A stretch of DNA of 15,114 bases from Deltaproteobacteria bacterium (GTDB lineage Bacteria > Desulfobacterota > Desulfuromonadia > Desulfuromonadales > BM103). The position numbers and the translations under genes are program-made. Below are positions 953 through 7,697 of the stretch, piece after piece (position 1 is the first letter of the stretch; the number at the start of each line of letters is the position of its first letter). The notes under the pieces were generated by a model. It searched no databases and was not told the DNA's origin. It saw only the letters and a program-made list of their open reading frames with translations. The stretch covers positions 1-15,114 of the forward strand of contig SBFN01000128.1 of assembly GCA_006226895.1 (NCBI GenBank), given 5' to 3'.

Positions 953-1000
953 TCCCGAAAGCCCTTTCTGCATTATGCGCCCACCGCACACACACTATTC

Positions 1001-1038
1001 TCAATCAGGTTGTATTTATGCCTGATTGAAGATAAATT
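1001..1038 (+). promoter_or_regulatory. Candidate promoter with inverted-repeat operator for the S66-spmAB operon
   Basis: TCAATCAGG (1001-1009) and CCTGATTGA (1021-1029) form a perfect 9-bp inverted repeat with an 11-bp spacer, so half-sites are 20 bp apart centre to centre (two helical turns). A weak promoter overlaps it: TTGTAT at 1010-1015, a 17-bp spacer and TAAATT at 1033-1038. The repeat would cover the -35 and spacer, which suits a dimeric regulator. The repeat lacks a T-tract, so it is less likely to be a terminator. No regulator gene is visible nearby. The repeat is seen directly; promoter and operator are inferred. Confidence 0.35.
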
Positions 1039-1098
1039 AAATTTCAGTAACGGCTCGGAATCTTTGGCGACATTGCTGATATCGCGGAGACCTTTCCA

Positions 1099-5610: not shown

Positions 5611-7428
5611 TCAAGGCAAGGTAAAGAAAAAGGTAGCGCCCTCGCCTTCTTTGCCAACGCCCCAGATGGTGCCGCCATGCCGCAGGATGATCTTCTGCAC
5701 TGTGGCCAGGCCGATGCCGGTTCCTGGGTACTCGCTGGCATCATGCAATCGCTTGAAAGTGGTAAAGAGATTAGCAGCGTGCTGCATATTGAAACCGATG
5801 CCGTTATCTCGGACGTAGAAGACCGATTTCCCCTGCTGCTCGTCAATGCCGAATTCGATCTTCGCTTCCGCCTCGGCCCGGGTGTATTTCCAGGCGTTTT
5901 CCAGGAGATTTCTCAGCACCACCCTCAACAGTTGCTGGTCACCCGTGCAAACCAGCGTTTCAGGGATAACGGTGATCACCTTGCGCTTCGGTTCAGCCAT
6001 CCTCAATTCCTCGACAATATCCCGTGCCATGGCGGCGAAATCGAGGGACTCACTATGAAGATCCTTACGGACGATGTTGGACAGGACCAGGATCGCCTCG
6101 ATCAGATCCTCCATACCCTGACACCCCTTACTGATGTTGTCGAGGAGCAAGCGCCCGGTTTCATCGAGGCCGTCGCCATAACTCTCCACGAGAATATCAG
6201 CTGCCGCATAGGCGCGAGTCAACGGTGTCCGCAGATCGTGGGAAAGGGTATAGCTGAACGACTCCAGTTCCTGGTTGGCCACCACCAGTTCCTCGGTTTG
6301 ACGCACCAGTGAGTTTTTCAGTTTACCGATCTCAGCCTGCATTCGGTTAAGATCTTCGGCAAGTTCGCCGATCTCATCGGTAGTAGCCACCTCCAGCCTC
6401 TGGTCAACGTCCCAGGTGCGGGTCACCTTCTGGATGTGGCTGCGAACCGCGAGAAAGAAATTCATGCTCTTCTTCATGGACAGCCAGAGGAGCAGATTGC
6501 CGCTGACCAGGATTACAATAAAAACTGTCAGGCTGGCCACCACGCCGTGCCAGATTGAATCACGGTGTTGGGTGACATTCTTCCGGGACAAGAGCACCCC
6601 GGCTGTTTCTCCAAAGGCATCCTGGATCGGCCCGGCACCGACGACATAGTGCTTTTTGTCGTGTTCGACAGCTTTCACTACAAAAGTCTTCAGACCCAAC
6701 GGCAATAAACTGTTTCTCTGTTGGTCGGACGACATGACCAGCTGTGGGCTGCTCGGATAAAGGGCCACAAAATCGCTGCCGTCCAGGACCTCCAGTCCGG
6801 TGTCGAATTTCTCAACATATTCCATCGGAAGGAACAGGGCAACGTCGTGTCCTGTAATCTCTTTCATCCGCACGAAAACATGGTCGATCTCCTCGGCCAC
6901 CTCCAGATAGCCAAGCAGCTCACCGTCAGCCTGGATCGGAGTGACGCAGCGCAGCGAAAAGAAGTTTTTTCCCATTTCAAGCCCGCTGGCCGTCTCTTTG
7001 GTAGCCACGGCCTGCAGGAAAGTGGCCCGCTCAAGGCTGTCGCCATACTGCTCCGGCTTGTGCACACGCAGCAGAACAGTGCCATCAGGAGCAATGAAAT
7101 ACATGTGGGTGATGGAATGTTTGGCCTTGAGTTCGCCAAAAACAGGCTGAGCAGCTGTCAGTAGAGCCGCCCGGTCCTCGGTCGCAAGCGGGGCGTGGAA
7201 CACTTCCAGGCGGCTGAGTCCCGAGGCCGCGCGACGCAAACCTTCGGCATCGGCAGCCAAGATCGTCCTGAGCAATTGGTTCTCCTGGTCAGCCAGATTC
7301 TCAAAGCGTTGCAACAGTTGCTCGGATTGGTTCTGGTAGGAATAGACCCCCATGCAAACGCAGCTGAGTAGGGCCACGACGGTAATCGTCAGAAGAAAGC
7401 GGGCCTTGATTGTCATGCCGATTGTCAT
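5611..7428 (-). CDS. Membrane sensor histidine kinase, dCache-HAMP-HisKA-HATPase
   Basis: This 605-residue two-component kinase has a first membrane helix at about 9-28 and an extracytoplasmic domain of roughly 29-290. The pattern there (YFIAPDGTVLLRVHKP, YGDSLERATF, then RCVTPI) fits a double Cache (dCache_3-like) ligand sensor. A second helix follows at about 294-317, then a HAMP-like segment (about 318-372), a coiled linker and the H-box SHDLRTP with phospho-acceptor His397. The ATPase domain shows the N-box NLLENAWKYT (Asn511), DNGIGF (541-546), the F-box near FKRLH and GTGIGLATV (569-577). All key residues are present. The start at 7428 has AGAGG 8 nt upstream. No response regulator is adjacent, so it is an orphan kinase. 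Its leader carries a GEMM-like riboswitch candidate. The ligand cannot be told from sequence. Confidence 0.95.
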   Translation of the reverse strand: MTIGMTIKARFLLTITVVALLSCVCMGVYSYQNQSEQLLQRFENLADQENQLLRTILAADAEGLRRAASGLSRLEVFHAPLATEDRAALLTAAQPVFGELKAKHSITHMYFIAPDGTVLLRVHKPEQYGDSLERATFLQAVATKETASGLEMGKNFFSLRCVTPIQADGELLGYLEVAEEIDHVFVRMKEITGHDVALFLPMEYVEKFDTGLEVLDGSDFVALYPSSPQLVMSSDQQRNSLLPLGLKTFVVKAVEHDKKHYVVGAGPIQDAFGETAGVLLSRKNVTQHRDSIWHGVVASLTVFIVILVSGNLLLWLSMKKSMNFFLAVRSHIQKVTRTWDVDQRLEVATTDEIGELAEDLNRMQAEIGKLKNSLVRQTEELVVANQELESFSYTLSHDLRTPLTRAYAAADILVESYGDGLDETGRLLLDNISKGCQGMEDLIEAILVLSNIVRKDLHSESLDFAAMARDIVEELRMAEPKRKVITVIPETLVCTGDQQLLRVVLRNLLENAWKYTRAEAEAKIEFGIDEQQGKSVFYVRDNGIGFNMQHAANLFTTFKRLHDASEYPGTGIGLATVQKIILRHGGTIWGVGKEGEGATFFFTLP

Positions 7429-7529
7429 CGTAAACGCCTCTGTAATAGATGCAACGCAAGTATAGAATAAACGAAAACCATTTTTTTTCAGGTGGTTGAG
7501 AGTTTTCGTAATGTTTTAAAGTTAAAAAC

Positions 7530-7598
7530 AAAAAAACTTGCCCCGAAATGCCGAGACGAGCGATAAGCCGATTGCTCATATTTTTCAATCTTCGGCAA
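7530..7598 (-). terminator. Terminator-like expression platform in the kinase leader
   Basis: Read on the minus strand, TTGCCGAA (7598-7591, the 3' strand of the candidate aptamer) can pair with TTCGGGGCAA (7547-7538) with a 2-nt bulge. A run of seven T follows at 7536-7530, then G and five more T. A competing pairing joins TGCCGAAGA (7597-7589) with TCTCGGCA (7556-7549), and GAGCAAT/ATCGCTC (7577-7571 with 7564-7558) forms an inner hairpin. Mutually exclusive stems that share the aptamer's 3' strand, ending at a T-run, are what a transcription-terminating riboswitch needs. Pairings are seen; switching is inferred. Confidence 0.45.
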
Positions 7599-7665
7599 CC
7601 CGGCTCCCCGCTTGAAGCCCGTGGTTTTCGTCATCGACCTGCATCGGCTTTGCTCTAATCGGAGC
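7588..7665 (-). promoter_or_regulatory. Candidate GEMM-I (cyclic-dinucleotide) riboswitch aptamer upstream of the kinase
   Basis: On the minus strand the leader contains, in order and with suitable spacing, the hallmark pieces of the GEMM-I aptamer: GAGCAAAGCC (7655-7646... region), GACGAAAACCACGGG (about 7632-7618) and AGCCGGGTTGCCGAAG (about 7605-7590). These match the family signatures GGCAAA-CC, GACGCAAAGCCACGGG and AGCCGGGUUGCCGAA closely. In GEMM-I RNAs the first segment holds a ligand-specificity base, G for c-di-GMP and A in the Geobacter 3',3'-cGAMP variants; by hand alignment this copy has A. The helices are weaker than consensus: P2 has a C-A mismatch and no clear GNRA loop, GCC is ACC before P3, and P1 is imperfect. 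It may be divergent or decaying. Location in a long leader ahead of a signalling gene and a T-run supports a real switch. Confidence 0.62.
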
Positions 7666-7667
7666 TT

Positions 7668-7697
7668 TTAATACTTAAAAAGCAACAAGCAAGCCAA
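7668..7697 (-). promoter_or_regulatory. Candidate promoter for the kinase leader
   Basis: On the minus strand TTGGCT (7697-7692) and TATTAA (7673-7668) are separated by 18 bp. Both match sigma-70 boxes only partly (4 of 6 for the -10). The predicted start, near 7661, falls at the 5' edge of the candidate aptamer, giving a leader of about 230 nt before the kinase ATG. The position makes sense but the boxes are weak. Confidence 0.3.

Follow-up and report, generated by a model that had tools for sequence, protein, structure and literature searches.

The closest described relatives of the leader considered here are the GEMM-Ib riboswitches of Geobacter (Gs1761, Gmet_0970 and pilM), in which, according to the sections of PMC6456294 consulted, A at position 20 (A20) marks the cGAMP type, and the A20G replacement turns the aptamer from cGAMP to c-di-GMP. 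The cGAMP riboswitch targets reported in Geobacter comprise many cytochrome, pilus and polysaccharide genes (same sections of PMC6456294). In the solved cGAMP riboswitch Gs1761, the lowest P2 pair is C15-G40, and G40 (position 46 in the numbering used here) stacks on the ligand (PMC6274999, consulted portion). It is also described, in the part of PMC9262584 considered, that cGAMP riboswitches can bind c-di-GMP via a protonated adenine; the same part presents the OFF design of Cd1, a c-di-GMP-I switch of Clostridioides difficile. No kinase behind a GEMM aptamer is named in the portions of PMC6456294, PMC8835794, PMC2700814 and PMC2996986 covered.

The window, i.e., the whole 15,114-nt stretch of DNA analyzed, belongs to a genome of 1.6 Mb in 270 contigs, 60% complete (G000; hereinafter G denotes a genome and L a locus). 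The original prediction placed three GEMM-I segments, in the correct order, on the minus strand upstream of an orphan sensor kinase: the segments are there in that order, and 161 nt separate the aptamer from the kinase ATG at 7428 (Table 1). Orphan status was assessed on nine window proteins, and no response regulator is among them. The assumed kinship with the Geobacter group agrees with the three closest named records, all of them Desulfuromonadales MAGs. Position before a sensor kinase sets the locus apart from the Geobacter riboswitches named above, with which it shares the aptamer fold, A20, A47, C92, a downstream terminator and the presence of Hypr-type GGDEF genes in the genome.

Table 1. 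Features of the kinase leader and the kinase gene (window coordinates).
Feature	Position	Strand	Details
Three GEMM-I segments	7655-7646, 7632-7618, 7605-7590	-	GAGCAAAGCC, GACGAAAACCACGGG, AGCCGGGTTGCCGAAG, respectively
GEMM-I aptamer, A20 type	7590..7665	-	nt 20 = A7654, nt 92 = C7595; Rfam 32.9 bits, R1 43.9 bits
P2 loop replacing the GNRA tetraloop	7639..7642	-	GCAG; GNRA in 100/109 aptamers of alignment A2
Gap at nucleotide 46	7628..7629	-	GACG-AAAACC, orthologs GACGCAAAGCC; alignment
A strand (P1 3' side), complementary to T strand	7592..7597	-	UGCCGA; A.T p = 0.005, 400 shuffles
T strand, able to pair with A strand	7549..7554	-	UCGGCA; sequence complementarity
Intrinsic terminator hairpin	7536..7561	-	-9.0 kcal/mol; U-tract 7536-7530
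Putative sigma54-type (-24/-12) promoter motif	7681..7697	-	TTGGC-N7-TTGCT; motif search; start expected near 7670
Rest of 5' leader, post-terminator	7429..7529	-	conserved among three orthologs
Sensor kinase, 605 aa	5611..7428	-	dCache_3, HAMP, HisKA, HATPase_c; domain scan

Orthologs of the kinase (E <= 1e-150) were detected in 4 of the 11 genus genomes searched, and three of the four carry a leader aptamer, namely the window, G004 (L034) and G001 (L121, also labeled L035); the covariance-model scan revealed none in the leader of the fourth, from G007 (L036). Among 58 relatives, two further orthologs were encountered (L037 and L038, 60% and 50% identity). No GEMM was found in the leader of L038, an ortholog from outside the genus, and the leader of L037 spans just 120 nt, too short to judge its presence.

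The best-scoring Rfam family for the window aptamer was RF03168 (32.9 bits, E 3.5e-5; 601 bases against 4227 families), and RF01051, the family proposed for checking, returned the same 32.9 bits (E 7.8e-5, 1.6-Mb genome scanned). Hence, a match to RF01051 does exist, although it lies under the gathering score of 35, as the RF03168 score lies under 65.9. The orthologous leaders fared better, with 63.3 bits for L121 and 44.8 bits for L034 against RF01051, both exceeding the cut-off; against RF03167 they reached 58.9 and 39.3 bits, both below its cut-off of 59. In the window as in its orthologs, the top scores belong to RF01051, RF03167 and RF03168 (c-di-GMP-I, -GGC and -UAU); membership in c-di-GMP-I-UAU or c-di-GMP-I-GGC was rejected because nucleotides 20, 47 and 92 are A/A/C, neither GGC nor UAU, the meaning of these suffixes being derived from the consensus lines of the families. 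A covariance model built from 17 genus aptamers (R1; window excluded, kinase ortholog L121 included) gave the window aptamer 43.9 bits (E 2.7e-12) and the runner-up place in the window 9.6 bits; therefore, a genuine but diverged GEMM-I (c-di-GMP-I clan) aptamer occupies 7665-7590 of the minus strand, as was originally proposed.

A chance resemblance without riboswitch ancestry would be compatible with the zero matches returned by the Rfam scan of the whole window at gathering thresholds, and with the folding energy of the 156-nt leader, which is not better than that of shuffled sequences (z -1.29; 23 of 200 shuffles equally good). Still, the matches of the two orthologous leaders, the distance between the R1 scores and the grouping of the window aptamer with four other leaders in a supported clade (see below) rule it out for practical purposes.

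All three orthologous aptamers have A at position 20, so the leader is predicted to recognize 3',3'-cGAMP, or else both dinucleotides; the C92 of the window likewise recurs in L034 and L121, and A47 is also kept in the window. The original prediction of c-di-GMP as the ligand conflicts with this base, since A20 is the mark of GEMM-Ib/cGAMP versus the G of c-di-GMP aptamers. The GGDEF proteins of the window genome include a relative of the cGAMP synthase GacA, with predicted activity: L100 and L102 feature the Hypr Ser (for Asp) and GGDEF signature (GHLVGS plus GGDEF), as defined in the consulted sections of PMC6456294, and for one of the two (labeled L247 in this comparison) the best PDB match was 6d9m (E 6e-50), an endolysin fusion which, judging by the description in those sections, appears to be GmGacA. 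At the same time, L121 and L034 possess G21-C46 at the site of C15-G40 in Gs1761, which makes promiscuous dinucleotide binding possible. A working c-di-GMP riboswitch, the version put forward originally, could draw on membership of the aptamer in the c-di-GMP-I clan and on the protonated-adenine binding mode of cGAMP riboswitches (PMC9262584, part considered); nevertheless, it seems improbable in view of A20 in all three orthologs, the Hypr-type GGDEF genes of the window genome and the defects of the window copy at nucleotide 46, in the GNRA loop and in pairing.

The ancestral working of the switch can be suggested from the intact ortholog of G001 (L121). Transcription would start right before the aptamer, in the window, in G004 and in two sister leaders from the putative sigma54-type promoter. 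In the ligand-free state, the aptamer 3' strand (A) would pair with the terminator 5' arm (T), and the aptamer 5' strand (P) with the terminator 3' arm (H), so the kinase would be transcribed; bound cGAMP (or c-di-GMP) would keep P.A paired and free T.H, whereupon transcription would stop, as in the OFF switch Cd1. Likeness to Cd1 consists, in the window and L121, in a terminator independent of the aptamer and in complementarity of the aptamer 3' strand to the terminator 5' arm; the differences are the A20 aptamer, the host and the gene, and the OFF direction is here a prediction with partial folding support.

Complementarity of both A.T and P.H in the window exceeded that in shuffled sequences (p = 0.005 each), with p 0.030 and 0.055 in L121, and the A/T strands changed on both sides from UACCGA/UCGGUA in L121 to UGCCGA/UCGGCA in the window (A-U to G-C); the L034 duplex contains one mismatch. 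The modeled probability of the terminator in the free leader and with the aptamer set apart was 0.00 and 0.97 in L121 and 0.25 and 0.94 in the window, and that of P.H in the free leader was 0.97 in L121 and 0.66 in the window. In the minimum-energy fold of L121 from aptamer to U-tract, P2 and P3 are kept, the A strand with an extension pairs with T, and P pairs with H; with a few extra upstream bases, a different lowest fold emerges, lacking an intact P2 and the terminator. The strands would permit a Cd1-type OFF switch, which the folding model backs only in part. Against the OFF direction, the pairing proposed for the ligand-free leader does not dominate in the model, where P(A.T) was 0.14 for L121 and 0.02 for the window.

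Across the 34 A20 leaders modeled, 12 shifted towards OFF and 22 shifted by <=0.3, and p 0.05 was reached for A.T in 13 and for P.H in 8 of them; the sister leaders L210 and L173 displayed no shift. The equilibrium model sought terminators beyond the aptamer only, so ON designs are invisible to it, and for this reason, together with the 22 small shifts, it is not decisive. Among the 49 A20 leaders with G21-C22, an independent terminator was present in 39, a terminator using the A strand in 5, and none was found in 5; a search allowing aptamer-using terminators found none behind the L034 aptamer. The described Geobacter GEMM-Ib switches, ON in contrast to the OFF suggested here, also count against it: in pilM, which switches ON, the A strand forms part of the terminator (PMC9262584, part considered), and all genes behind GEMM-Ib in G. 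sulfurreducens fell on gacA deletion (PMC6456294, consulted sections). Overall, an OFF direction of the ancestral switch is conceivable with slightly less than even odds.

The window copy departs from its orthologs in several respects. It lacks nucleotide 46 and with it the pair 21-46, the lowest of P2, which lies next to the ligand; this nucleotide is present in L034 and L121, and its loss distinguishes the window from the Geobacter GEMM-Ib riboswitches. The two orthologs differ from Gs1761 in the orientation of the pair, G-C versus C-G. P2 is closed by a GNRA tetraloop, which docks on P3, in L034 (GCAA) and L121 (GCGA), and by GCAG in the window, where P2 also harbors a C.A mismatch. Of the 19 aptamer pairs, the window has 3 that are non-canonical and L034 has 2, whereas all are canonical in L121; three or more broken pairs occur in 12 of the 109 aptamers of alignment A2.

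Aptamer identity (window-L034 63/77, window-L121 60/77, L034-L121 61/77) is close to that at four-fold synonymous sites (0.850, 0.813 and 0.819, respectively), so there is no excess conservation of the aptamer (p 0.48 and 0.52 in the two window comparisons). Eight A20 pairs from different genomes, part of which precede non-orthologous genes, ranged from 77/77 to 60/80 (L124/L208 75/77, L133/L213 77/77, L152/L136 92/93, L138/L215 80/92, L132/L154 77/92, L132/L217 73/92, L154/L217 80/92 and L137/L216 60/80). Thus, the 63/77 pair is not unique, and slow evolution is common, not universal; e.g., the orthologous aptamers L132 and L154 diverge as well, their proteins being 96% alike.

Taken together, these features are in line with the early remark on decay. 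The window copy probably binds its ligand poorly or not at all and is most likely a decaying, weak or ligand-blind riboswitch, so the case for the proposed cyclic-dinucleotide control of the kinase is stronger in the G001 ortholog than in the window. The favored reading, with a probability of roughly 0.57, is a GEMM-Ib (A20) leader belonging to the dCache_3 kinase and decaying in the window lineage; the ligand, the OFF direction, the loss of binding and the role of the kinase are the parts of it that we infer. Against decay, the window retains complete A.T and P.H pairings, which argues against free drift; moreover, the comparison comprises three orthologous leaders only, and an error in the assembly could account for the absent base.

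A still working, divergent cGAMP or promiscuous riboswitch, tolerant of the loss of nucleotide 46, would account for the retained A20, A47 and C92, for all four strands P, A, T and H with their two-sided change relative to L121, and for the modeled terminator response (0.25 versus 0.94). It is nonetheless rather unlikely given the stacking of G40 on the ligand (PMC6274999, consulted portion), the absent GNRA loop, the C.A mismatch in P2, and a minimum-energy fold that engages the P2 5' strand in pairing with downstream sequence. Under the favored reading of a decaying leader, one intact and two eroded leaders in sister species would form a natural series for studying which aptamer bases are the first to fail, as well as the fate of a gene once its switch dies. 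Apparent decay can be seen at another locus, L146, where an aptamer at 980-1055 (+), situated 3' of a high-scoring one at 63-143, lacks several core bases.

In the tree of 49 A20 aptamers, the window, L034, L121, L210 (G005) and L173 (G007) group together with 99/99 support, the order inside this clade being poorly supported. L210 and L173 precede a different kinase type (359 and 337 aa, HisKA and HATPase_c, without dCache_3); the two proteins share 48% identity with one another and about 24% with the window kinase in its C-terminal part. The DNA of L121 and L210 is 84% identical over 147 bp, from the aptamer start to the terminator; the upstream sequence of L210 available for comparison is about 58 nt only. 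A related leader before a non-orthologous kinase in two species thus implies that the leader was reused.

The full TTGGC-N7-TTGCT motif upstream has a sole exact match in the window, and with up to one mismatch there are 5 matches versus 1.30 expected; the promoter type and the start point are predicted from the sigma54 consensus. The core TGGC-N7-TTGC lies 16-17 nt upstream of the aptamer in the window, L034, L210 and L173, and is absent upstream of the L121 aptamer; it occurs in 5 of the 49 A20 leaders and in 2 of the remaining 103 leaders (0.01 expected per set). The rpoN gene was detected in G001 and G004 and was not found in the 60% complete G000. It is a tentative and on balance doubtful suggestion that a portable leader (sigma54 promoter, GEMM-Ib aptamer and terminator) places different histidine kinases of a Desulfuromonadales genus under cGAMP OFF control, having been reused before two non-orthologous kinases, one of which would have kept it intact in one species and in progressively decayed form in two. 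The post-terminator leader is 83/101 identical between the window and L034, 88/102 between the window and L121, and 81/102 between L034 and L121; it contains CGAAAAC...GTTTTCG, which may form another hairpin or act as a promoter.

In the genus stretches taken, R1 recovered at least 152 aptamers (the RF01051 matches counted were 166, at least one of them outside those stretches), with G at position 20 in 93 and A in 59 of the 152. A HisKA domain was encoded by 12 of the 144 downstream ORFs scanned (4 duplicate ORFs were dropped, and 4 aptamers lacking an ORF were omitted), so a histidine kinase behind GEMM-I is a repeated arrangement in the genus and the window case is not unusual. The frequency was 8/52 behind A20 aptamers without C21-C22 and 4/92 behind the others (p 0.029); this enrichment is weak because the entries compared are related to one another, A20 aptamers with C21-C22 are counted among the 92, and the longest ORF with a start no more than 1000 nt away was taken for the downstream gene. 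If the prediction is true, sensor kinases behind GEMM-Ib leaders would allow cGAMP to adjust how sensitive two-component inputs are.

At L209, L223 and L244, histidine kinases of the PAS or PAS/GAF type reside behind A20 GEMM aptamers. The commonest aptamer type of the genus has G20 together with a C21-G46 pair in flipped orientation (51/152, alignments A2 and A3); the solved cGAMP riboswitch combines the same C-G pair with A at position 20 (PMC6274999, consulted portion). Finally, a cluster of genes homologous to each other (Rec + PilZ in the two scanned) is preceded by a G20 GEMM-I aptamer in three species including that of the window (L246/L001, i.e., G000:C47:831-924, L112 and L238) and by an A20 aptamer in three others (L182, L230 and L218), with closely similar surrounding bases, a natural case in which one base toggles the ligand class predicted for the leader of a putative c-di-GMP receptor.
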